Below, one piece after another: positions 9,713 to 54,850 of a stretch of 64,000 nt of DNA. The stretch is from a bacterium (GTDB lineage: Bacteria; Campylobacterota; Campylobacteria; Campylobacterales; Sulfurimonadaceae): NCBI GenBank assembly GCA_018825665.1, contig JAHJEG010000017.1:62001-126000 (forward strand). The letters are read 5' to 3'. Position numbers and translations under genes: made by a program. Numbering within the stretch: the first letter of the stretch is position 1; each line of letters begins with the position of its first letter. Under the pieces are notes generated by a model that was not told where the DNA came from, ran no database searches, and saw only the letters and a list, made by a program, of their open reading frames with translations.

Positions 9713-10058
9713 GCGATATACCGCGCTTTTAGATGAGTTTATCCTCCGTATCGACCAACAGAGATATTATGATGCGCATGAGAGCATTGAAGCCATCTGG
9801 TTTCCAAGAAGGTTTGGGGATGACAACGAGACCAAATTACTCAAAGGGCTTATCAATGCGGCTGTCTGTTTTGAACTGATAAAAAAAGGGCGCTATGCTT
9901 CAAGCGATAAGGTGTGGAAGAACTATCTTAAATACAGACCTCTTTTATACAAGGTGCACTCACCCTACCTCAACAAATACCACTCCATAGCCCGGCATGT
10001 GGAAAATGTAAAAAATGTACTGGCGCGTAACCGGATTATGTCCCGGGATATGTCATAA
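9702..10058 (+). CDS. DUF309 family protein
   Basis: 118-residue protein with the DUF309 signature: RYYDAHESIEAIWFPR in the N-terminal half, then LLKGLINAAVCFELIKKGRYASSDKVWKNY. The family is helical and its function is not established. The gene overlaps the rhodanese-like gene and is followed 24 bases later by an mscS gene. One exact copy of the repeated 10-mer GGCATGTGGA lies inside the gene at 9994-10003, the first in the window. Confidence 0.75.
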   Translation: MTHERYTALLDEFILRIDQQRYYDAHESIEAIWFPRRFGDDNETKLLKGLINAAVCFELIKKGRYASSDKVWKNYLKYRPLLYKVHSPYLNKYHSIARHVENVKNVLARNRIMSRDMS

Positions 10059-13525: not shown

Positions 13526-14607
13526 CCCCAGAGATATAAGAATCCACATGCCAAGAGTGCGATAAAGGTTGAACTGAGGAACAGATACTCAGGGTAAAAC
13601 TCATAGACATATCCTGAGAGCAAGGCTCCGCTAAACCCTCCCAGACCGTAAGTGATTCCTGAAAAGAACTGTTGCGCCAAAGACCTGTGTTTATACAGGT
13701 GATACAGATAACTGATAGCCGCGGAATGAAAAAGTGCGAAACTAAGAGCATGCAGTGTTTGCGCGAAAAACAGTATGAACAGGTTCTGCGGAAACAAAAA
13801 CAGCAAGAACCATCGCAGCGCACCCGCAAAAGTCGTGATCTGCAAAATCAAAAGCAGATTGTTTCTGAGAAGTTTTCCCTGGTAATAGAGCATGACTATC
13901 TCAGCCAAAACCCCAAAAGTCCAAAGATAAATCGTCATATCCAAACTTACGCCGTGGTCTGTCTCATAGATAGTGAAAAAATTATAAAAAGCTCCAAAAC
14001 TCACCTGCATAAGCGTGAGTCCAAGCCATAGTTTCCAATCACCGAGTATATCGATATCGTTTTTTATCTCCTGTGTCTGATTCAAAACATCCTTGGCATT
14101 TCCGGCGATGACAAAGGCAAAAACAGCCGTCACAAAAGTAAGGCACAGCAGATAGTTCAATGCTATATCGGGAGAGGACAAAAACTTCACCAAGACAAGT
14201 GCGACAAGCACAAAGCCTACGGAACCGTAAAGTCTTATCTTTCCGTATCTCTCCTTGCCTATATGGTTTAAAGATATAAGTTCGATATAAGGCAACACCA
14301 GACTAAGCCCTATACCAAGCCCTATATTCGCAACAAGAAGCATAGAAAAGCTATCCAGTGAAAAGTAAAAGAGACTAGAGCTTGCGAGCATGATAAGCAG
14401 AGCAAAATTAAAGCTCTTTACATTGAGCTTCAAGCCTCTGGTAAAAGCGAAGGGAACCATAAAGCGTACCAGCGGTCCAGCCGCAAATATTATCCCAATC
14501 TCACTCGCCGTATAACCGACCATAGACAATACTTTTGGCATAAAGATGATATACACACCGATAATTGAAAAATAAAAAAAATAAAAGACTGAAAGTAGTA
14601 CTGGCAT
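13495..14607 (-). CDS. MFS transporter, PPP/LacY-like family
   Basis: 370 residues with about 12 hydrophobic helices; a Major Facilitator carrier of the MFS_1_like/3-phenylpropionate transporter type (IGVYIIFMPKVLSMVGYTASEIG, GKIRLYGSVGFVLVAL, ALFHSAAISYLYHLY). Substrate unknown. The start codon itself lies within a copy of the repeated 10-mer (14603-14612), and another copy lies near the 3' end (13543-13552). It is followed upstream by an RDD gene 16 bases away, so the two are probably co-transcribed. Confidence 0.8.
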   Translation of the reverse strand: MPVLLSVFYFFYFSIIGVYIIFMPKVLSMVGYTASEIGIIFAAGPLVRFMVPFAFTRGLKLNVKSFNFALLIMLASSSLFYFSLDSFSMLLVANIGLGIGLSLVLPYIELISLNHIGKERYGKIRLYGSVGFVLVALVLVKFLSSPDIALNYLLCLTFVTAVFAFVIAGNAKDVLNQTQEIKNDIDILGDWKLWLGLTLMQVSFGAFYNFFTIYETDHGVSLDMTIYLWTFGVLAEIVMLYYQGKLLRNNLLLILQITTFAGALRWFLLFLFPQNLFILFFAQTLHALSFALFHSAAISYLYHLYKHRSLAQQFFSGITYGLGGFSGALLSGYVYEFYPEYLFLSSTFIALLACGFLYLWGQNSKIKLVS

Positions 14608-14623
14608 GTGGAACTGCCTTTGA

Positions 14624-15708: not shown

Positions 15709-17125
15709 TCAGGCGATTTTACTTTTTGTCGCACTTCTTGTCGTAGCCGTATACGGTCTGACTGCCTCAAATTTTGTACTCAGCGGCGCTGTTTTGCTTG
15801 TTTTGATCCTTGCTGTATTTGTAGCACCCTCTGAGACATCTTCGTCCAATAAAACACTGCACGACACCATGCAAAAAGTTCTTCAAAATGCGGCTCTTGG
15901 AAAACTTGAAGACCGCATTACAAATATCCCAAACGACGGTTCCCGTGATTCGTCCTTTGCCTGGGATGTCAATGATGTTTTGGACCAGCTTGAAGCATTT
16001 ATGCGAGATACAAAAAGCACTATAGAAAACGCCTCCAGGGGAGACACCTACAGAAGAACTTATCCCTCGGGACTAAAAGGCGTGTTTCACACGACATCGC
16101 TTGAGCTCAACAAGGCGATATCTTCCATCGCCAGCGGCTACGAGGCCAGAATCAAAGGGAATCTTTCAGCCGACCTTGGTACCTTGGGAGGAGGGATGAG
16201 TTCCGGACTTGGAATCATTCAAGAGGATATCAATATCTCCCAACGTGAAGCCCATGAGATAGTCAGCATTGCTACAAAAACGGCGGATGAAGCTTCTAAA
16301 AGTCTTGACAGCGTAGTGGAGATAGGAAGCAGGCTCAATAATCTTGTCGAACTTATATCCTCTTCACACGAGGGGATCATAGGACTGGAACACCGCTCAA
16401 AAGATATCTCCGAAGTGGTCGGGCTTATCAAGGATATTGCAGACCAGACGAACCTGCTGGCGCTTAATGCCGCTATTGAGGCAGCGCGTGCCGGAAGTCA
16501 AGGCCGCGGTTTTGCCGTAGTTGCCGATGAAGTCAGAAAACTGGCTGAGAGAACCCAAAAAGCAACGCATGAGATAGAGATAAATATCAAAACCCTTCAA
16601 CAAGAAGCAAACGATATGAGAACGAACTCTGATAATATCTCTGAGATAGCAAATGACTCAAGTCAGGTTATTCATGAGTTTGAAAACACCTTTACAGAGC
16701 TCAACTCCCTGGCAAACGCATCCTCAACCGGTGCTATTAAAATTCAAAATCGTCTTTTTACGACACTGGTAAAAGTGGACCATATCATTTTCAAATCACG
16801 TGCATATTCAAGCGTTTTAGAGGCCGATGCAACGGCTCAGTTTGCTGATCATTTTACCTGCCGTATGGGTAAATGGTACTCCACTTCCGGAAAAGAAAGG
16901 TTTGGAGATACGCAATCGTTTAAAGATATGGAAGTTCCACATGCCCTGGTTCACAATATGGTCTTTAAAAACTTGGAATATACCAAAAACGGTGCAACCC
17001 TCAAACACAATAATCCAAAACATATTATCGAGAACTTCAAGATAATGGAAGATGCTTCAAGCGATCTTTTCATAAAACTCAACAGTATGCTTGAGGAATA
17101 TGATAAAAAAAGCGGGACACATTAG
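15677..17125 (+). CDS. Membrane chemoreceptor with C-terminal CZB domain (CetA-like)
   Basis: About 482 residues. Two adjacent membrane helices near the N-terminus (residues ~12-50), with almost no periplasmic loop, are followed by a HAMP-like linker ([20 protein letters not shown]). Then comes the signalling hairpin with tip [20 protein letters not shown] and a C-terminal CZB domain (His in VDHIIFK, Cys in TCRMGKWY, paired His in PHALVH). The ATG at 15677 follows AAAGGGAG with six bases of spacing. Lack of a periplasmic sensor and overlap with the PAS gene indicate a split energy/redox taxis receptor. One repeated 10-mer copy lies at 16936-16945. Confidence 0.85.
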
Positions 17126-17285: not shown

Positions 17286-18785
17286 ATGAAAATAATCCTT
17301 ACAACTTTAAACGCCAGATTCACCCACTCCGCGATTGGTCTGAGATATATCTATGCAAATTTAAAAGAGCTTCAAAAGAACACAAAAATCCTGGAATTCA
17401 GTATCAATGATGCCCTTCAAAGCGTGGCAGAAGAGATACTCAACGAATCACCCGATATCATAGGGATAGGCGTTTATATATGGAATGCCAAAGAATCTGC
17501 AGAGCTTATACATCTGCTCAAAAAAATCTCCCCCGATACCAAAATCGTCCTTGGCGGACCTGAGGTCTCATATCTCCCTATGCGCGTCAATTTTGATGAT
17601 GCTGATTTTATTATCCAGGGGGAAGGTGACTTGGCGTTTTATGCGCTATGCAGGGAGCTTCTCCAAGGCAAAAACACACCTGCGAAAATCATAAAGATGC
17701 ATGTACCGCCTCTTAGCGAAATAGAGCTGCCTTATCAGTACTATACGGACGAGGATATACAAAACCGCTATATCTATGTTGAAATCTCAAGAGGCTGCCC
17801 TTTTGAATGCGAGTTTTGTCTCTCTTCAATGGATGAGAAAGTGCGTGCTTTTGATTTGGACAAGGTCTTGGAAGAGTTCGAAAAACTTTGGCAGAGAGGG
17901 GCCAGAAACTTTAAATTTGTAGACAGAACCTTCAACCTGAACATGAAGGCTGCAAACAGAATCCTGGACTTCTTTTTGGCAAAAGAGGAGCAGTACTTTG
18001 CCCACTTTGAAGTTATACCCGACCATTTCCCCTTATCTCTGCGAGAAAAGATAAAAATCTTTCCACATGGAGCATTGCAGCTTGAAATCGGGATACAGAC
18101 ACTCAATACCGAAGTAGCAGACAATATCTCAAGACAACTGAAACTGGACAAGATAGAAGAGAATATACGTTTTTTGGAAGATGAGACAGAGGCGCATATC
18201 CATCTTGACCTGATTGTCGGGCTCCCGGGAGAGAGTTTGGAGAGTTTTGGTAAAAATCTGGATAAACTAGTAGCTATGAGCAGCTGTGAGATACAGATAG
18301 GGATACTTAAAAAACTCTCGGGAACCTACATAGACCGCCATGACGAAACATTTGGCATGGTTTACAGCGACATCCCCCCTTATGATATTTTAAAGAATTC
18401 CCAATTGAGCTTTAATGATATCCAAATCATGAAAAGATTTGCCAGATTTTGGGATTTGACCTACAACAGCGGAAATTTCAAAAAAAGTGTCCTTTTGCTT
18501 TGGGGTGAGCAGAGCGTGTACGAAAACTTTTATGCCTTTGGCATGTGGATCTATCAGCAAACTCACTCCACATGGAAAATATCATTACAGAGATTGGGAG
18601 AGCTTCTCTTTATCTATCTTACTCAGGAAAAAAATCTTCCAAAAGAGCAGGTGGCGTCTGCTATGCTCCAAGATATGATGAAGCTCAAAGGAAGAGCAGT
18701 TCCCGTCTATCTCAAGCCTTACGCAAAGGATTTTATTCCAAGCGCGAAGGGTGGAACGGCAGGATTTAACAAAAGACAGGTTTAG
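17286..18785 (+). CDS. B12-binding-domain radical SAM protein (DUF4080-like)
   Basis: 499 residues. The N-terminal ~150 residues form a cobalamin-binding-like Rossmann fold (IGIGVYIWNAKESAELIHLLK, KIVLGGPEVSY). The radical SAM core follows with the cluster motif in SRGCPFECEFCLSSMDEK (CxxxCxxC), then the substrate region (IGIQTLNTEVADNISR, IHLDLIVGLPGE). A C-terminal ~130-residue domain resembles the DUF4080 tail. The architecture is that of cobalamin-dependent methyltransferase-like radical SAM enzymes; the substrate is unknown. It contains one repeated 10-mer copy (18540-18549). Confidence 0.8.
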   Translation: MKIILTTLNARFTHSAIGLRYIYANLKELQKNTKILEFSINDALQSVAEEILNESPDIIGIGVYIWNAKESAELIHLLKKISPDTKIVLGGPEVSYLPMRVNFDDADFIIQGEGDLAFYALCRELLQGKNTPAKIIKMHVPPLSEIELPYQYYTDEDIQNRYIYVEISRGCPFECEFCLSSMDEKVRAFDLDKVLEEFEKLWQRGARNFKFVDRTFNLNMKAANRILDFFLAKEEQYFAHFEVIPDHFPLSLREKIKIFPHGALQLEIGIQTLNTEVADNISRQLKLDKIEENIRFLEDETEAHIHLDLIVGLPGESLESFGKNLDKLVAMSSCEIQIGILKKLSGTYIDRHDETFGMVYSDIPPYDILKNSQLSFNDIQIMKRFARFWDLTYNSGNFKKSVLLLWGEQSVYENFYAFGMWIYQQTHSTWKISLQRLGELLFIYLTQEKNLPKEQVASAMLQDMMKLKGRAVPVYLKPYAKDFIPSAKGGTAGFNKRQV

Positions 18786-19450: not shown

Positions 19451-21372
19451 CCTTGTTTAAACAAATAGCTCTTATGCTCTCGCTCTTTTTAATAATTATA
19501 TTGGCAACCGTTCTCACACTGAATTTTAAAAGTGCAAACCAGGCTGTTCAGGACAGGCTCTACGAAGATGCGAAGAACACTGCCTCCTCGCTCAGCCTTT
19601 CTCTGGGGAGTGCCAACGGCGATGTGAGCATGATGTCTACTATGATAAATGCCAACTTCGACAGCGGAAACTACAAATATATATCTCTTGTTGATGTTGA
19701 AGATACTCTGCTTTATGAACGCAAAGCTGAGATAAAACAGATAGATGTCCCTTCCTGGTTTACAAAAACTGTAATAATAATCGCACCCGTCGCCTCTGCA
19801 AATGTTTCTGCGGGGTGGAATCAGGTGGGAATGCTCAACGTACAAAGTGATGTCGGCTATGCATATCTGCAGCTGTATACCATATTCAAAAATCTTCTTA
19901 TATCCTTTACTATCCTCAGCTTTATAGGACTTCTTATTCTCAACCTTCTTTTGCATACGATTTTAAAACCGCTGAAAAAAGTACAACTGCAGGCCGAAGC
20001 CGTTATACGCAACGAATTTATCATACAAGAGGATATCCCCTATACAAAAGAGTTTAGGGATGTTGTTCTTGGGATGAACAATATGGTTTCAAAAGTAAAA
20101 GCTATGTTTGACAAAGGAAATGAGGAGCTCAAAAGACAAAAAGAGCTGGAGTATACAGACTCTATCACCAAACTCAAAAACCGTAAATATCTGATAGACA
20201 AACTTCCCGAGTATCTAAAAATTGACGCCTCTTCCAAAGGCGGCATCAATATGATGGTAGCTCTAAGCGGCGTTATCGAAGCAAACGAAACAATTGGGCA
20301 CAGGGAAGTGGACAAGCTCTTTGTAGCGATTGCCGATATATTCAAGGCGCATGCAAGCAACTACGAAAACTCTCTCGTGTGCAGAATGAACGGTACCGAA
20401 TTTACAATCTTGCTTCCCGAATGCTCCGATAAAGAAGCGCTTGCTTTGGCAAAAGGTATCTCCCATTCGACGCGCGATGCGATCTTGGCATGTGGACTTG
20501 ATGCGGCATGCACCTATCTCTCCATCGGTCTATATGAATACAACTACAAACAAAACATAGGTCAGCTTCTTTCCCTCTCCGATAACGCCTTGGCACAGGC
20601 AAAATTCAATAAAAAACATATTCATCTGGACAAATCAGAACATGCAGTAGAGGTTATGGGAAAAGAAGCATGGAGAAAAATTATCAACGAAGCTCTCCAA
20701 AGCGATAAGTTTGGTTTTGTTTCCTACGGTGTCGTTGATACCAAGGTCAAAAAGATTGCACACCATGCGCTCAGTCTTACCATGAAGGCAGAAGATGGTA
20801 CGATTTACTCTTATGGCCAGTTTATGGCATCTGCAAATCAGGCAGGACTGAGTTCAAGTATTTATACGAATATTCTTTCCATGATGTTTAAAAAACCTGA
20901 TATGAAACTAAAGAACTCTATCTGTTCCCTCAGACTTCCTTTTGAGTTTTTAGACGATATCGGAACTTATGACAGGCTTGTCACGCTCTTTACACAGTAC
21001 GCCGCCAGATTGCCTTTCAAGCTGATTATCGAGATGCCCGACAAACTTGTCAGAAAAAATTCTCAACAGATCAAACTGTACAAATCATTGTTTCAGACCT
21101 ATAAAATAGAGATGGGGGTGTATGAGTTCATCGGCGAGAGCCCCGATTATCAGTATCTGCAAGACCTGCGACCTATTTATCTCAAAGGTGAAGCAAGCTA
21201 TTTTCTAAGCCAAAACGAACAATCGCTCTCCGCACTCAGACTTATCACCGATTCAGTCGGCATCTCTCTGATAGCCGTTGGCGTAATGGATACCAAAACA
21301 CTCTCCAAACTACAGAAAAAAGATATCCGTATTATTCAAGGGCGAGCCACAGAGATGATTGAGTTGGCATAG
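19447..21372 (+). CDS. lapD: LapD-like c-di-GMP receptor (degenerate GGDEF-EAL)
   Basis: 641-residue inner-membrane protein: TM1 (residues ~5-27), a LapD/MoxY-type periplasmic domain (~28-150), TM2 (~152-175), HAMP, GGDEF-like and EAL-like domains. The GGDEF site reads NGTEF and the EAL signature reads HHALSL, so both enzymes are probably inactive, as expected for an effector that binds c-di-GMP and sequesters LapG. It follows lapG with a 4-base overlap and AAGGA before the ATG. One repeated 10-mer copy lies at 20487-20496. Confidence 0.85.
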   Translation: MTLFKQIALMLSLFLIIILATVLTLNFKSANQAVQDRLYEDAKNTASSLSLSLGSANGDVSMMSTMINANFDSGNYKYISLVDVEDTLLYERKAEIKQIDVPSWFTKTVIIIAPVASANVSAGWNQVGMLNVQSDVGYAYLQLYTIFKNLLISFTILSFIGLLILNLLLHTILKPLKKVQLQAEAVIRNEFIIQEDIPYTKEFRDVVLGMNNMVSKVKAMFDKGNEELKRQKELEYTDSITKLKNRKYLIDKLPEYLKIDASSKGGINMMVALSGVIEANETIGHREVDKLFVAIADIFKAHASNYENSLVCRMNGTEFTILLPECSDKEALALAKGISHSTRDAILACGLDAACTYLSIGLYEYNYKQNIGQLLSLSDNALAQAKFNKKHIHLDKSEHAVEVMGKEAWRKIINEALQSDKFGFVSYGVVDTKVKKIAHHALSLTMKAEDGTIYSYGQFMASANQAGLSSSIYTNILSMMFKKPDMKLKNSICSLRLPFEFLDDIGTYDRLVTLFTQYAARLPFKLIIEMPDKLVRKNSQQIKLYKSLFQTYKIEMGVYEFIGESPDYQYLQDLRPIYLKGEASYFLSQNEQSLSALRLITDSVGISLIAVGVMDTKTLSKLQKKDIRIIQGRATEMIELA

Positions 21373-28492: not shown

Positions 28493-29146
28493 ATTCAGCA
28501 GATTCGTGTAGTCATACCTCTTGGTATCAACATAATATTTGTTGCCCACTACAACGATCCGCTCATCTTTTTTGGAGTGTTTTTTAAATCTCTTTTTTAT
28601 TTTTTCTTTTTGCCTGTTGCTGTACCCGCCCTGCTTAAGATATTTTTTCAAAGATATGAGATTGGATTCAAGCTCCGTCTGCACCTCTTCATCTTCAATC
28701 TCAGCCTCTATATCATCGCTTTTAATCTCAAGGTCGGCTGTTTGGGGAGAGTGGAGCATAAACTTTGACGAAATCGCGTTTAAAATATTTTTTAGCTGTT
28801 CATCTTTTTCTTTGTAAATCTGCTCTATCTTATCTCTTTCATCTATAAGCATTTGCTCTTTTTGCTCTCGAACGGTTCTGGTTTCCACTTCAAGTTTATC
28901 GATTCTGTTTTGCAAAAATTTATTCTGTTCTTCCAAAAATGAGTAATATTTATCATCCGTCTGAACTGTAGTTCTTCGTCTTTGGGCGGCATTTGTTTTT
29001 GTGGCATGTGGATTGTCGCCAACCATCACAAATTTGACACCATCTTGCACGACACTCTGCATTGAGCCTCTTCTTATTCTGTTGTGAATAGCCTCTTTTG
29101 AAACTCCAAGATACTCAGCCGCCTCGACAATACTCATTTTTTTCAT
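28487..29146 (-). CDS. HTH/coiled-coil DNA-binding protein
   Basis: 219 residues. The N-terminal ~45 residues look like an excisionase/MerR-type winged helix (MSIVEAAEYLGVSKEAIHNRIRRG). A long charged coiled coil follows (FLEEQNKFLQNRIDKLEVETRTVREQKEQ). The C-terminal ~60 residues are basic (GGYSNRQKEKIKKRFKKH, then VVVGNKYYVDTKRYDY). Family not recognised; a chromosome-binding or regulatory role is possible. AAGGG precedes the ATG. The 3' end overlaps the convergent diguanylate cyclase by 6 bases. It carries a repeated 10-mer copy (29003-29012) and lies 10 bases after yajQ, so the two are probably co-transcribed. Confidence 0.65.
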   Translation of the reverse strand: MKKMSIVEAAEYLGVSKEAIHNRIRRGSMQSVVQDGVKFVMVGDNPHATKTNAAQRRRTTVQTDDKYYSFLEEQNKFLQNRIDKLEVETRTVREQKEQMLIDERDKIEQIYKEKDEQLKNILNAISSKFMLHSPQTADLEIKSDDIEAEIEDEEVQTELESNLISLKKYLKQGGYSNRQKEKIKKRFKKHSKKDERIVVVGNKYYVDTKRYDYTNLLNL

Positions 29147-30860: not shown

Positions 30861-32480
30861 CTACTCCATAAAGTCTGCACAAAGCACACTGTCCTCTTTC
30901 CACGTTATCGTATGCGCCTTGAATGCCATGTCGTTTTCTCTTGGTATATCGGAGCGGTAATGGGCACCGCGGCTCTCGTTTCTGCTGATTGCACATACCA
31001 GGATAATCTCGCTAAGCTCCACCATGTTTCCAAACTCTATAAATTCAACAAGATTCGTGTTATAGACTTTTGACTTGTCTTTTGGTCCCATAAACGGCAG
31101 CTCTTTTTGTATCTGGCGAATTGCACCCAAAACAGCTTTGAGTCCCATCTCATCACGTTTGATTCCTGCATTGTTATAAAATATATTTCCCATAAAAGCA
31201 TGTTTTTGGTAAAAATCTATCTGATTGGTAAAATATTTTATCCCCGTGACAAAGTTATTGGCACTTTTGGTTTGCTCTTTGGAGTCTATCTTTTTATCAA
31301 AACTTTTTGCATATTCTGCACCCTTTTCTCCTGCTTGTTTTCCAAATACTATGAGTTCCAAAAGGGAGTTTCCTCCAAGGCGGTTTGCCCCGTGGACTTT
31401 GTGGTTGGCACACTCGCCGCAGGCAAAAAGTCCTTTGAGCCTTGTTTGGGAGTTTTTATCCACCTCAATACCGCCCATCGTATAGTGTGCTACGGGTTTT
31501 ATGGGGATCAGATCATGAACAGGATCAATATTTTCATAAAGCTTTGCAAGTTTTCTCTCCTGAGGAAGCTCTTCATCAATGAATTGTTCTCCCAAATGAC
31601 GGATATCCAAAAATACCTCTTCGCCACTTTCAATCTGATCGTTTATCGCACGGGCGACTTCATCTCTTGGAGCAAGCTCGTTTGTAAAACGCTCCCCTTT
31701 TGAGTTTAAAAGATGTCCGCCTGCACCTCTGGCACTCTCAGATATTAAAATAGAGGAGTTCTTAAGCGCTGTAGGATGAAACTGGATAAACTCCATATCG
31801 CTTAGTCGTGCTCCGGCACGGATTGCAGCTGCTATCCCATCGCCGGTTGAGCCTTTTGCGTTTGTCGTATGCCTGTGATAGATTCTGCTGTAGCCGCCTG
31901 TTGCCATAATCACACAAGAGCTCTCATGGGCTTCAACTTCGCCGGTTCGTATATTTAAAAATACCGCTCCGCAGGCATAAGGCTTTTCATAATCATCCTT
32001 ATCACTCAGAAGATTAAGAAGATATCTTTCATTGAGTATTTCAATTCCACATGCCAGGACTCTGTCATAGAGCGTATGAAGTATTTTAAGTCCTGTATAA
32101 TCCTGGGCATAACAGGCTCTTGGAGCAGAAGCTCCTCCGAGTGTTCTTTGCGCTATTTTTGCATCTTTTGTTCTGCTAAAGGGCACGCCTATGCTATCTA
32201 GCCATTCTACGGCTGCGGGTGCCTGTTCGCACATAAATCTCACGGCCTCTTCATCGGCCAAACCGTGGGCAGATTTTAAAGTATTTTGTATATGCGCTTC
32301 CACGCTGTCTTGTGCGACATTCGCAAAAGCCGCATTTATACCCCCCTGAGCCATAGATGTTTGGCTTCTGGTGGGGTAGTCTTTTGTTATGATAGTAACC
32401 TTTGCGCCTGCCTCATGCGCATGCAAAGCCGCAACAAGCCCGGCTCCTCCGGCTCCAATAACTAAAACATCACTTTTCAT
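30861..32480 (-). CDS. Fumarate reductase/succinate dehydrogenase flavoprotein subunit
   Basis: 539 residues. It has an FAD dinucleotide-binding N-terminus (DVLVIGAGGAGLVAALHAHEAG), the capping-domain motif FHPTALKNSSILISE, the catalytic-region RGAGGHLLNSKGERF, and GGIEVDKNSQTRLKGLFACGECA. The residue that covalently binds FAD in classical SdhA/FrdA (His in RSHT) is Gln here (RSQTSMAQGG), so FAD is probably non-covalent. There is no Tat signal, so it is cytoplasmic. With its partner it may act as a soluble or type E-like fumarate reductase; the electron donor is not evident from the neighbours. AGAGGG precedes the start. It contains a 10-mer copy (32046-32055). Confidence 0.85.
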   Translation of the reverse strand: MKSDVLVIGAGGAGLVAALHAHEAGAKVTIITKDYPTRSQTSMAQGGINAAFANVAQDSVEAHIQNTLKSAHGLADEEAVRFMCEQAPAAVEWLDSIGVPFSRTKDAKIAQRTLGGASAPRACYAQDYTGLKILHTLYDRVLACGIEILNERYLLNLLSDKDDYEKPYACGAVFLNIRTGEVEAHESSCVIMATGGYSRIYHRHTTNAKGSTGDGIAAAIRAGARLSDMEFIQFHPTALKNSSILISESARGAGGHLLNSKGERFTNELAPRDEVARAINDQIESGEEVFLDIRHLGEQFIDEELPQERKLAKLYENIDPVHDLIPIKPVAHYTMGGIEVDKNSQTRLKGLFACGECANHKVHGANRLGGNSLLELIVFGKQAGEKGAEYAKSFDKKIDSKEQTKSANNFVTGIKYFTNQIDFYQKHAFMGNIFYNNAGIKRDEMGLKAVLGAIRQIQKELPFMGPKDKSKVYNTNLVEFIEFGNMVELSEIILVCAISRNESRGAHYRSDIPRENDMAFKAHTITWKEDSVLCADFME

Positions 32481-32523: not shown

Positions 32524-32862
32524 TTAAAAAATCTGGGCTAAAAAATAATATCTTAAAACTCTTAAGCTTCCGGCTATGATAACAAACCAAACAAACTTCA
32601 GTCTAATAACACCGGCTACAAGTGTTAGCGGATCTCCAATCACGGGTAGCCATGTAAAAGGTAAAATAAAATATCCGTATTTATTTCCACATGCCAAGCT
32701 TTTTGAACCGGCTTTTGACTTTTCTAATTTTGTTTTTGTTTTTTCATAGAGCCAGTAACCAAACCAATAATTCACTACAAGTGCAAGTATGTTTCCAGAA
32801 GATGCAAAGAACAAAGCCGTATACAGGGGCATATCATTTGCCAAAGCAGCTACGAATGTCAC
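32524..32862 (-). CDS. YqaA/DedA-like small membrane protein (start uncertain)
   Basis: 112 residues from the GTG at 32862, with VTT/DedA features: GNILALVVNYWFGYWLYEK, a GYFILPFTWLPVIGDPLTLVAGVIR loop and RVLRYYFLAQ. The same frame stays open upstream and encodes the expected first helix (LALFFSAFLAATIIPLSSEVTF), so the protein really starts before 32862. No ATG, GTG or TTG is in frame before the conserved helix, up to the end of the preceding dehydrogenase gene. Initiation is therefore non-standard or the frame is damaged. One 10-mer copy lies at 32686-32695. Confidence 0.65.
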   Translation of the reverse strand: MTFVAALANDMPLYTALFFASSGNILALVVNYWFGYWLYEKTKTKLEKSKAGSKSLACGNKYGYFILPFTWLPVIGDPLTLVAGVIRLKFVWFVIIAGSLRVLRYYFLAQIF

Positions 32863-42838: not shown

Positions 42839-44401
42839 CTATATATATCTTGGGACAATGATCTCCAAAGAGCTTAAGATCTCTTCGTTATCCTGCTCAC
42901 CCGTAAAATAATTATACTCTTCATGCGCCTGTCTGTCATTGTGACGCTGCTGCTGTTGCCCGCCATTTTGCGAATTGCCGCTCTCTGACTGGTTATTAAA
43001 ATTTAATGTAGCATTATTTATTCCATTATTATTCAACTGCGTTCTCAGCTCATTTGCGTTCAATACAAGCGTATTTATCGCGCTGTTGTTTGAGCTGATG
43101 TTTACATGAAGGTTATTTCCTCTTTGGACAATCGTCAAATCGACTTCACCCAGTTTTTGCGGATTTAACTGCACCTTTACTCTGGTAAAAGGTGATTTAT
43201 AATCTTCTATCGCCGTTTTTACATCAGATGAGAGATACTTTATCATCTGTTTGGCTTCATTGAGTTTCACTTCAAAACTCTCGGCTTTTAGCACTCCCGC
43301 GGCATCTGTTTTGGATACGGTCGTTTCGCTTTTTGCCTCACCCTCGCCATGAAGAAGTTTTTCCAAACTGTTCTTGACCTCTGTTGCAGCACTTGGAGCT
43401 AAAACCTTGGCCGTAGCAACGGAGAAATCGGCCGTCAAAGCAGGATTTGCCTGAGATGGCTTTTCGCCACGAAGCAGCAGTTTTAAAGTTTCATCGGCTC
43501 TGTCTTTTGGTGTTTTTTCTTCCACCTTAAACTGTTTGGAGAGAACGAACTGCTCTGTTGTATGTTCCGTTTGTGACTGAGCTTTAAAAAGAGGAGTCGC
43601 CTTTATCTCTTTTTGTGTCATCAAATTTTTATCATCCACTTTTGGAGCTTGGGAACTGTTCTCTTTAAGCTTGTTCTCTTTGTCCTGAGCCGCTTGTGTT
43701 ATCGGCTTTGCCGCTTGCGTCTTATCGGCATCCGGTATAGATGATTTTACGGGGCGCTCAGTCTGCTTGGCATGTGGAAGTTCAGGTTTGTCTTTTTGCA
43801 CATGCCCGGAGAGCTCTTTCTGGGATTGGGGATTTGTACTTTTGTTTTTGCTCTGCAAATCTTCCGTTTTTAGAGCGGGTGCTTTTGGCTGAACCTCTTC
43901 TACGGTTATCTTGCTGATATCTATTCCCACTTTTTTAGCCAGTTCCGCCAAACCTTTAAGTGTACTGGGTAGCTCTTTTATCTGTGATTTTTTATACTCG
44001 TCACTCTGAAGTATTTTAGATTTCAAATACTCTTTTGCATCTGCCACCAGTGTTTTTATCTCTGCTGTGCTTAAATGCTGGCTTAACTTCGGGTTTATCT
44101 CCACATTGTCTTTTATCTTAAGAGAACTCTCTTCTTCATTGCGAAGCAAAGATAAAAGCGTACTGTTTTTTGAAGAAGCCTTGGTATTTTTTGTATCTTT
44201 CTCATCAGAGGAGAGGGAAAGGACCAAACTGCCGTTTTGGACCACTTTGTCGTTTTTTTCGACAAGCTTACCCTCTTTGGCGCTTGCAGAGCCTGCTCCT
44301 TTTAAAAGTTCGGAAAAAGAGAGTGTCGGCTTTTCATCAGGAGTCGATAAACTTAAAGGGGAAGATGCGTTTGTCTTATTTTGTACATCTGCTGAAATCA
44401 T
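42839..44401 (-). CDS. fliK: Hook-length control protein FliK
   Basis: 520 residues. A long disordered Lys/Glu/Gln/Ser-rich N-terminal ~370 residues, the ruler part, is followed by the compact Flg_hook C-terminal domain (FTRVKVQLNPQKLGEVDLTIVQRGNNLHVNISSNNS, NELRTQLNNNGI). A Gln/Asn/Gly-rich stretch follows, then an acidic end. Exported with hook subunits, it switches export specificity. First gene of the fliK-flgD-flgE2 operon. One repeated 10-mer copy lies in the disordered part (43769-43778). Confidence 0.87.
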   Translation of the reverse strand: MISADVQNKTNASSPLSLSTPDEKPTLSFSELLKGAGSASAKEGKLVEKNDKVVQNGSLVLSLSSDEKDTKNTKASSKNSTLLSLLRNEEESSLKIKDNVEINPKLSQHLSTAEIKTLVADAKEYLKSKILQSDEYKKSQIKELPSTLKGLAELAKKVGIDISKITVEEVQPKAPALKTEDLQSKNKSTNPQSQKELSGHVQKDKPELPHAKQTERPVKSSIPDADKTQAAKPITQAAQDKENKLKENSSQAPKVDDKNLMTQKEIKATPLFKAQSQTEHTTEQFVLSKQFKVEEKTPKDRADETLKLLLRGEKPSQANPALTADFSVATAKVLAPSAATEVKNSLEKLLHGEGEAKSETTVSKTDAAGVLKAESFEVKLNEAKQMIKYLSSDVKTAIEDYKSPFTRVKVQLNPQKLGEVDLTIVQRGNNLHVNISSNNSAINTLVLNANELRTQLNNNGINNATLNFNNQSESGNSQNGGQQQQRHNDRQAHEEYNYFTGEQDNEEILSSLEIIVPRYI

Positions 44402-47994: not shown

Positions 47995-48883
47995 GCAGCA
48001 TTTCAAAAGCACTGTCTATGCTTTGGGCTTTTTGTGCAACAAAAAGATAAATAGCAGCGTTTAGTTTTGCCAGTTTAAGATATTCGTTTGATGGATTGCT
48101 CAACTGTTGCAAAGACTCCTCAAGCGAGATGCTCTCCCATGATTTTTTATAATTAATCCCGTAATATTCGGGATCGATAATGAACTCTTCCACATGCCCA
48201 CCCTTGGCAATCCACAACCTGCCCTTGCTGAAGAGTTCCGGCGTTCCCTCATTTCCCTGTATCAGCGCAAAATTTTTGTAACGCTCAGAAAATATTTCAA
48301 TATATTTTTTGACATAGGGTTTGTGAAAGACACCGGTGATGGCATAATCGCTGCCGGCAATGCGGGAGAGCTTTTCTATAGTATTAAACCCCGTTCTGAG
48401 TCCAAGCCGCATACGTATATCCGTGAGTCGGTGAAGCTCTTTAAAAAAATCTTTTCGGTCAAAGAAGTGGCAATTCTCACTCAGATCAACACGCGTGCAA
48501 ATCTCTTTTGTCGTAATGCCGTTTTTTGCAGGCTGAAGTTCATCCCCTATGAGAACCAAATGGAGGGCGGCATCCTTTAAAACCTCGGCCACAAGAGGAA
48601 AGATATAAGGGTTCTTTGCTTTTCCGTCAAAAGGATAGCCAAGTTCGATAGAGTTCTCTATCTTCTTGGGAGTGATATACGAATCACATGCACTGATTGC
48701 AGCTCTGAACTCTGTTGTTGTTTCGGGTTTTAGTCTCCATCCCAGCAAAAAAGCCGCAATTTGTTCCGAATGGATACTTTGGTCCAAAATCTGGCGCATC
48801 ATATCCTCAGCCTCTTCAAAATCCAAATCCCTGTTGCCTTTTGGTCCCGTACCGACCGCATGTAAGTACTTATGAAAATTCAT
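47987..48883 (-). CDS. ybiB: TrpD2/YbiB-like phosphoribosyltransferase-family protein
   Basis: About 298 residues resembling anthranilate phosphoribosyltransferase in fold: the helical N-terminus (LDFEEAEDMMRQILDQSIHSEQIAAFLLGWRLKPET) and the MRLGLRTGFNTIEKLSRIAGSDYAITGVFH segment. The catalytic glycine loop of true TrpD is replaced, as in the TrpD2/YbiB group, whose E. coli member binds nucleic acid. The ATG at 48883 follows AAGGCAAAACG; a start at 48916 is less supported. It carries a repeated 10-mer copy (48189-48198). Confidence 0.75.
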   Translation of the reverse strand: MNFHKYLHAVGTGPKGNRDLDFEEAEDMMRQILDQSIHSEQIAAFLLGWRLKPETTTEFRAAISACDSYITPKKIENSIELGYPFDGKAKNPYIFPLVAEVLKDAALHLVLIGDELQPAKNGITTKEICTRVDLSENCHFFDRKDFFKELHRLTDIRMRLGLRTGFNTIEKLSRIAGSDYAITGVFHKPYVKKYIEIFSERYKNFALIQGNEGTPELFSKGRLWIAKGGHVEEFIIDPEYYGINYKKSWESISLEESLQQLSNPSNEYLKLAKLNAAIYLFVAQKAQSIDSAFEMLHG

Positions 48884-49364: not shown

Positions 49365-50603
49365 ATGTTCTCAGTAAACCGTGATTTTGCACCGCCGTTC
49401 AAGCTGATTGCGCCCTATTTTATTATCGGGGTGACACTCTATCTTGTAAGCACGCTCTTTGCCTTTAGCCTGGATATATCCGCAAGCGGATATATGGATC
49501 CCTCCGTCATAGCATGGGTGCATCTATTCCTGCTTGGCTTTGTGATGATGGTTATCCTTGGAGCAATGGCACAACTTATTCCGGTTGTGCTTGAGAACGG
49601 ACATTTTGCAGTGGACCTGTATTACATCATCTGGCCTTTGCTGCTTGCAGGAGCACTGCTTATGGCATGTGGATTTATCTACTCTGCTGTTCTCCTTCCC
49701 TTTGGAGGGCTCACTGTTCTTCTGGCTATGCTTATATTTCTTTTGGATACCCTGATGACGATTAAAAAGGTAAAAGCCAAACTGAATTTTGCGATGACAA
49801 GTATTATCATTGCCAATGTTTTTTTATTATCGGGCATAATCCTGGGCATAATCCTGGCACTTGGTTATGCAGGAATCATCAGCGTCAATTTGAATGAACT
49901 TGTAAAAGGGCATCTGTATCTGCTTGTGGGTGGATATGTAATTATTACCATCTATGGGCTCTCCATGGTCCTGCTGCCGATGTTTGGCCTCTCCCACCAT
50001 TTTTCATCACGTCCTATAAAAATTGCACTTTTTTTAATGACTGCGGCAGTGGTCTGTGTCACAACGGCCTCTATTTTGGAACTCTCCCTCTTGTCCTATA
50101 TCGGCTATCTCTTAGCCGCAGTATCCCTTCTCTTCTATCTTTACCAAAACTATATCCTGTACAAAACCCGCGCACGCAAAGAACACGATATCTATATAAA
50201 ATCCCTTTATGTGTCCAATGCCTCGCTTATTGCTTCTTTGGTATTGGGTGTTGTTTATATTTTTAGTGCTGATGAGACCTTGCTTTTTGCTATAGGCTGG
50301 CTGACTTTTACGGGATTTTTCGGTTTTATAATCACGGCGCATCTCTATAAAATAGTACCGTTTCTCATCTGGTTTGAACGTTTTTCGCCTCTGGTGGGAA
50401 AACAAAAAGTGCCTATGTTGGCAGACATGCTTCCACTCAAAGGAGCTAATGCACAGCTATATTTTAGTGCCATAGGTGTTTTTTTGGCTACATACGGTCT
50501 CCTTTTTGCCAGTAATGATCTTTTTAGATCGGGGATATCGTGTTTGTGTGTCGGTAATCTTTTTTTACTGCAAAATATAATCTATATAATAAGGTTCAAA
50601 TAA
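49365..50603 (+). CDS. Heme-copper-oxidase-like/NnrS-like integral membrane protein
   Basis: 412 residues with about 12 membrane helices. Histidines sit in conserved-looking helices: AWVHLFLLGFVMMVILGAMAQLIPVVLE, KGHLYLLVGGYVIITIYGLSMVLLPMFGLSHH and ITAHLYKIVPFLIW. This resembles subunit I of heme-copper oxidases/NO reductases and the NO-related NnrS family, but it lacks a full six-His core that I can recognise. A role in NO metabolism or heme/copper binding is inferred from context. It is coupled to the next gene by TAATG. Confidence 0.55.
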   Translation: MFSVNRDFAPPFKLIAPYFIIGVTLYLVSTLFAFSLDISASGYMDPSVIAWVHLFLLGFVMMVILGAMAQLIPVVLENGHFAVDLYYIIWPLLLAGALLMACGFIYSAVLLPFGGLTVLLAMLIFLLDTLMTIKKVKAKLNFAMTSIIIANVFLLSGIILGIILALGYAGIISVNLNELVKGHLYLLVGGYVIITIYGLSMVLLPMFGLSHHFSSRPIKIALFLMTAAVVCVTTASILELSLLSYIGYLLAAVSLLFYLYQNYILYKTRARKEHDIYIKSLYVSNASLIASLVLGVVYIFSADETLLFAIGWLTFTGFFGFIITAHLYKIVPFLIWFERFSPLVGKQKVPMLADMLPLKGANAQLYFSAIGVFLATYGLLFASNDLFRSGISCLCVGNLFLLQNIIYIIRFK

Positions 50604-54428: not shown

Positions 54429-54508
54429 TTTCCACATGCCGCCACTTCCACATGCACTTCCACATGCACTTCCACATGCACTTCCACATGCCATCACTTC
54501 CACATGCC
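54429..54508. repeat. Tandem array of 12-bp units containing the repeated 10-mer
   Basis: Four perfect copies of ACTTCCACATGC (54444-54491), a fifth after CATC (54496-54507) and a divergent unit at the left (54429-54440). Exact TCCACATGCC occurs at 54431-54440, 54483-54492 and 54499-54508; TCCACATGCA at 54447, 54459 and 54471. The other exact copies in the window, on either strand, begin at 9994, 13543, 14603, 16936, 18540, 20487, 29003, 32046, 32686, 43769, 48189 and 49664. The array begins 26 bases after the Sel1 stop. Confidence 0.9.
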
Positions 54509-54535: not shown

Positions 54536-54549
54536 TTGACATTAATCAA
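54536..54549 (+). promoter_or_regulatory. FNR-type box upstream of small secreted protein
   Basis: TTGACATTAATCAA, an excellent TTGAC-N4-ATCAA dyad. TATTTA at 54573-54578 could be its -10 (spacing ~42). A second -10, TATAAT, lies at 54639-54644 too far away for class II use. Confidence 0.5.
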
Positions 54550-54673: not shown

Positions 54674-54850
54674 ATGAAAACACTACTTACGCTCTTACTT
54701 ATGATTGGTACACTTGCAGCAGCAGATACAGTTCATTATGACAAACAAAATGAAAAAAATGACACGGTACACTATGGGGATAATAAAACAGACTCTAAAA
54801 ATATAAGTAAGCCCAATCACCCATCAAACAGCCTCTACGGCAAAAAATAG
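54674..54850 (+). CDS. Small secreted peptide with DTVHY repeat
   Basis: 58 residues. A signal peptide (KTLLTLLLMIGTLAAA) is followed by a very polar mature part of ~40 residues, with DTVHY twice (ADTVHYDKQNEKN, NDTVHYGDNKTD) and ending in SLYGKK. The His/Asp/Tyr content could bind metal, but nothing is established. AAGGA lies seven bases before the ATG. It has its own promoter (TATAAT at 54639) with FNR-like and Fur-like sites upstream. A hairpin (54875-54892) follows the stop. Confidence 0.6.
   Translation: MKTLLTLLLMIGTLAAADTVHYDKQNEKNDTVHYGDNKTDSKNISKPNHPSNSLYGKK

Follow-up and report, generated by a model that had tools for sequence, protein, structure and literature searches.

A head-to-tail array of a putative DNA uptake sequence in a genome of the Sulfurimonas group

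What does it mean that a gap between two genes holds six head-to-tail copies of a short motif that is scattered, hundreds of times, over the same genome? The question is raised by a locus in a 64-kb window (the whole stretch of DNA that was analysed) of a 2.34-Mb genome, hereafter G000.

Structure and surroundings of the array

The motif search located six copies of TTCCACATGC on the plus strand at 54430..54507, starting at 54430, 54446, 54458, 54470, 54482 and 54498, that is with spacings of 16-12-12-12-16. TRF delimited within them a perfect 12-bp tandem core, CACTTCCACATG repeated 4.1 times (54443..54491, plus strand, 100 % matches), which is the top-scoring tandem array of the window. The inner units are TTCCACATGCAC, and 16-bp units make up each of the outer intervals (TTCCACATGCCGCCAC and TTCCACATGCCATCAC, with the spacers CCGCCAC and CCATCAC), so that the array holds six full motif cores; the motif positions and TRF agree with the original prediction of four perfect 12-bp copies and two flanking units. 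Since 16-bp units flank the 12-bp ones, the 12-bp unit may have been derived from a 16-bp unit by the loss of 4 bp. No other occurrence of the 22-mer tandem unit was found across 41 genomes.

The coordinates place the array, as proposed at the outset, between a Sel1 gene and a small gene with an FNR-type box. On its 5' side lies the gene of a Sel1-repeat protein of 233 aa (PF08238; 53702..54403, plus strand) and on its other side an FNR-type box of the form TTGA-N6-TCAA (TTGACATTAATCAA; 54536..54549, plus strand), read from the sequence upstream of an ORF for a secreted-looking protein of 58 aa (54674..54850, plus strand), which has orthologues in the genomes G057 (52 %) and G113 (45 %) and for which no Pfam family was found. 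This position, between the Sel1 stop (54403) and a conserved FNR-type box, could suggest an operator of the small gene or a Sel1 terminator. We regard such a role as very improbable, because the orthologue in G057 keeps the FNR-type box without the array, the folding of the array RNA does not surpass that of shuffled sequences (z 0.27 and -1.3), there is no run of T on the 3' side of the array, and the motif is found hundreds of times within genes. An Rfam scan of the window returned one tRNA and nothing else. For the suggestion that the array acts as a protein-binding array, no specific support was found.

In G057 the gene order is the same and the array is missing: the Sel1 protein is 60 % identical, the neighbouring uroporphyrinogen methyltransferase-like protein 86 % identical, and the FNR-type box (TTGATAAATATCAA) is found within ~25 bp of the Sel1 stop, which indicates that the lineage of G000 carries an extra ~100 bp. 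Absence of the array from close relatives, put forward earlier as a result that would refute the reading, was accordingly observed in part, at this orthologous locus, but in a genome that is itself nearly motif-free. At the other 29 loci with Sel1 homologues in whole genomes, no motif was found in the available first 300 bp downstream.

Copy number, placement and pairing of the motif

The repeated 10-mer had been predicted to be dispersed, and this was confirmed by 560 copies of TTCCACATGC in the 2.34-Mb genome (reversed control, 1). The consensus is TTCCACATGCC (11 bp), whose core, TCCACATGCC, is present in 721 copies, 376 in one orientation and 345 in the other (reversed control, 0). Hundreds of copies far above expectation are what an uptake sequence should leave: in 396 kb of this genome the motif is the most over-represented 10-mer (140 vs 1.4 expected, z ~118), and it is by far the leading 10-mer in samples of G000, G095 and G081 (z ~60-120). 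No comparable interspersed motif, as another dialect would be, was found in samples of 100-141 kb from each of six motif-poor genomes. The sequence TACATGTAGA is mildly over-represented in G043 (contigs L121-L125; 12 vs 0.65 in 100 kb) and has ACATG in common with the motif.

Within the window, 25 matches with at most one mismatch were counted against 4.1 expected from shuffles, and none of 100 shuffles reached 25. Apart from the array, the motif search located TTCCACATGC at 16935..16944, 32045..32054, 32685..32694 and 48188..48197 on the plus strand and at 9995..10004, 14604..14613 and 43770..43779 on the minus strand. Variants in which TCCACATGCC is kept were located by the same search, namely ATCCACATGC at 13542..13551 (plus) and at 18541..18550, 29004..29013 and 49665..49674 (minus), and GTCCACATGC at 20488..20497 (minus).

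Outside the array, 127 sites were classified with a home-made gene caller as 107 coding (84 %), 18 intergenic and 2 at an edge, and noncoding DNA is enriched ~2x (p = 0.002); such a mixture of genic and intergenic copies is expected of an uptake sequence. The coding copies occur in several frames and both orientations, PHA or ACG being the commonest reading. The logo is sharp over 11 bp, with weak A/G preferences immediately outside and no conservation beyond. High copy number, together with the inverted pairs described below, could recall what is left of an interspersed mobile repeat (REP- or MITE-like), an origin that we consider extremely improbable: nothing is conserved beyond the logo, conservation ending sharply at the 11-bp motif, the copies are 84 % genic and in several frames, and orthologous sites are common across 24-25 % DNA divergence.

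Inverted pairs, often behind genes, are a further mark of uptake sequences, and in this genome the arrangement GCATGTGGA-N1-21-TCCACATGC was found 17 times, about ten times the chance level (~1.6 expected for this pair arrangement and gap range in this genome); other carriers of the motif have up to 52. Two of the pairs lie 3-12 bp behind gene ends, and one gene-end pair folds to a strong hairpin (-17.8 kcal/mol, z -6.4). Outside the array, the number of direct pairs in the same genome is close to chance (5 vs ~3.3 expected), and the original prediction was right that a head-to-tail array is unlike the usual inverted pairs.

The abundance of the motif and its conservation between carriers would also suit a site for a chromosome-organising, segregation or recombination protein (KOPS/FRS, matS, Chi or the site of a nucleoid protein), the array being then a strong cluster of such sites. 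With GC skew as a proxy for replication direction, the strand split is 57 vs 99 in this genome (p = 0.001), a moderate bias of the kind that this explanation would predict; some GC-skew bias is however expected anyway because TCCACATGCC is C-rich, and the split is balanced in both G095 (25/27) and G081 (32/32). A KOPS/FRS or Chi-type polar motif, for which strong polarity is required, was rejected on these counts, and the lack of strong polarity is in line with an uptake sequence. A chromosome-protein site of any kind appears improbable to us, since the motif is missing from most species of the genus, decays neutrally in the comEC-defective sister genomes treated in the next section, and forms many gene-end inverted pairs that suit uptake sequences better.

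Conservation among carriers and decay in comEC-defective genomes

Among 135 genomes of the genus, about 10 have ~260-1300 copies of the motif, a further group has 30-190 and the rest few or none; over the phylum (397 genomes), enrichment is confined to this genus. Most carriers group on one side of an rpoB tree, on which deep branches are weak and the carrier label needs several changes. When carriers with no known damage to comEC were compared, identity was found at 134 of the 165 sites aligned, against 24 expected from the aligned background, a count which, like the other site-conservation counts given here, pools related genome pairs that are not independent. None of 50 carrier sites is identical in motif-poor genomes, a result that is nearly true by construction.

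Competence genes, which an uptake sequence presupposes, are found in this genome, with comEC, which encodes the DNA-import channel, at G000:C50:5488-6768, ten N-methyl prepilin matches, T2SSG and T2SSF. Across the genus, 78 of 79 good genomes have comEC (PF03772), the exception being G149, where no match was obtained, even with a full-length query. G149 and G096 are sisters in the rpoB tree (100/99) and adjoin G095 and G067. In G096 comEC is broken in two, residues 1-172 forming the N part and residues 164-416 the C part, with 8.1 kb between them. The insert (L251:5229-13351; 8.1 kb, 29 % GC) is flanked by the 5-bp repeat GTCTC, has the ends TGACAATA...TATTGACA and carries genes for a TnsA-like protein, Kiwa KwaB, a radical SAM protein and a UDG-family protein as well as a pilin-like ORF; no copy of the motif was found in it. 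Its GC content, the 5-bp repeat, the ends and the TnsA-like gene point to a probable Tn7-like element, or the remnant of one. Its gene content would suit a Tn7-like element with a defence role, by which transformation is blocked.

Motif numbers differ strongly within this group of four genomes: G095 and G067 have ~1300 copies each (1298 in G067, whose comEC is cut by a contig end), G149 has 183 and G096 has 141. Copies with one mismatch are in excess in the sister pair (ratio 2.2-2.3 vs 1.1-1.25). When sites were followed from carriers of this undamaged kind into G096 and G149, 2 of 19 were identical against 3.5 expected; with G095 as sole reference, 22 of 33 were identical in other carriers against 2 of 12 in the defective pair (Fisher p = 0.006). 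These alignments indicate that motif sites in the two genomes are decaying at the neutral rate. A tie between the loss of comEC and the decay of the motif thus receives strong support, which falls short of proof, since the pooled pairs are not independent and the two sister genomes make up a single lineage. Nor would comEC loss be the sole route to decay, because five genomes (G061, G085, G129, G137 and G148) have reduced motif numbers and many one-mismatch copies together with a full-length comEC; in these, the receptor or another competence gene may have been lost, or the specificity may have changed. Motif-poor relatives also carry comEC and prepilins.

Taken together, copy number, balance of orientations, inverted pairs, conservation between carriers and decay without comEC give good support to the earlier proposal of an uptake sequence, and we consider it probable that TTCCACATGCC is a DNA uptake sequence of a Sulfurimonas-group clade, spread by uptake drive, with the array formed by duplication.

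Relation to known systems, proposed uptake drive and growth of arrays

As of 2025, the use of uptake motifs was known in Neisseriaceae and Pasteurellaceae only, the DUS and USS respectively, with the inner cores CTG in DUS and GCGG in USS (PMC12616744). Membership in either family was rejected: TTCCACATGCC has neither CTG nor GCGG on either strand, which places it outside both, though it is of the same kind. The DUS of Neisseriaceae, whose receptor is ComP, resemble it as continuous motifs of ~10-12 bp that are present in hundreds to thousands of copies in both orientations, form inverted pairs at gene ends, go together with prepilin genes and are clade-restricted (PMC12616744, PMC3630211). 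The putative uptake motif of the Sulfurimonas group differs from them by its unrelated sequence, its phylum (Campylobacterota) and its long head-to-tail arrays. The USS of Pasteurellaceae, with ComN/PpdA as candidate receptor, have the same genomic signature and inverted pairs, but consist of a 9-nt core with downstream AT-rich segments (PMC12616744), whereas the Sulfurimonas motif is without AT-rich flanks and is another motif in another phylum. HIP1 of cyanobacteria is likewise a very abundant short motif, of debated role; it is however palindromic (GCGATCGC; PMC4390886), unlike the asymmetric Sulfurimonas motif, which is restricted to one clade.

Our literature search found no report of uptake sequences in Sulfurimonas or Campylobacterota, and a text search for the letters of the motif gave unrelated papers only, among the matches listed. 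In the same phylum, Campylobacter jejuni has a methylation-dependent self recognition, by which transformation favours self DNA, the mark being a methylated short site. The preference for self DNA would be shared with the system proposed here, but it depends on a methylated site and not on an over-represented 11-mer.

The best reading is that the motif belongs to a third independent uptake-sequence system, in Campylobacterota. If this is true, a third case, in another phylum and outside the commensals of host mucosa, would mean that systems of this kind emerge time and again, and not only on mucosa. Since the clade comprises full carriers, eroding genomes, motif-free relatives and a pair with disrupted comEC, the upkeep of the motif by uptake bias would be directly testable, and the old question of whether uptake bias itself maintains a motif in a genome could be addressed.

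The mechanism that we propose would begin with a competence surface protein, most likely a minor pilin of a type II secretion/type IV pilus-like system, acting as candidate receptor and binding the motif on free DNA. A single strand would then enter via ComEC and recombine with the chromosome. If fragments that bear the motif are taken up more often, copies would be created, repaired and spread by transformation (uptake drive), until hundreds of them occupy permissive sites in genes, inverted pairs at gene ends and intergenic positions. Tandem duplication would have enlarged the array in a 3' intergenic gap free of constraint, where extra copies would be tolerated and perhaps favoured, as they would make uptake of this stretch more likely. 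The uptake function, the receptor and the selective value of the array are all inferred here from genome sequences.

Growth by slippage or tandem duplication, as first proposed, fits both the perfect 12-bp units and the analogous arrays, built of other units, at unrelated loci of other carriers, and the array is best described as a lineage-specific cluster of the motif that would fit this mode of growth. Head-to-tail clusters with 16-, 17- and 18-bp units were found in those carriers; G067 has one of 16 18-bp units (one unit with a single change) and, at another place, one of 8 units; G066, G060 and G081 have clusters of 4-6 units. Motif arrays occupy permissive places, mostly intergenic, and one in G081 lies inside a reading frame of 562 codons. 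The contigs L173, L175 and L176 (G066) and L177 (G060) end within motif arrays, so that the real arrays are probably longer than assembled.

The array could also be read as a neutral minisatellite, in which slippage duplicated one ordinary copy of the motif and neither uptake nor regulation is affected. Perfect 12-bp units, lineage specificity and an intergenic position are all consistent with such an origin, to which we give a substantial, though minority, chance. It bears on the array and not on the motif, which could still be an uptake sequence, and the likelihoods that we attach to the different explanations therefore do not sum to one. Against it, seven carriers together hold at least 15 clusters in which three or more motifs stand head to tail; given a background of one short tandem array in about 145 kb, we roughly estimate that chance would yield ~0.1-0.2 motif arrays per genome. 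This excess, given the roughness of the estimate, is a hint that arrays of the motif are favoured. The full combination of a third uptake-sequence system, a decay of the motif upon destruction of comEC by a Tn7-like element, and arrays that serve as uptake hot spots and whose growth is driven is put forward tentatively, as a whole that we hold to be rather unlikely.

Two more observations concern repeats in the carriers. One of the motif arrays of G060 lies in a prepilin gene (L181:1825-2313, PF07963), where three tandem copies of the motif encode FPHAK three times in the leader peptide. In G081, a long degenerate tandem array of 18-bp units, ~52 in number and unrelated to the motif, extends over L117:10942-11875.
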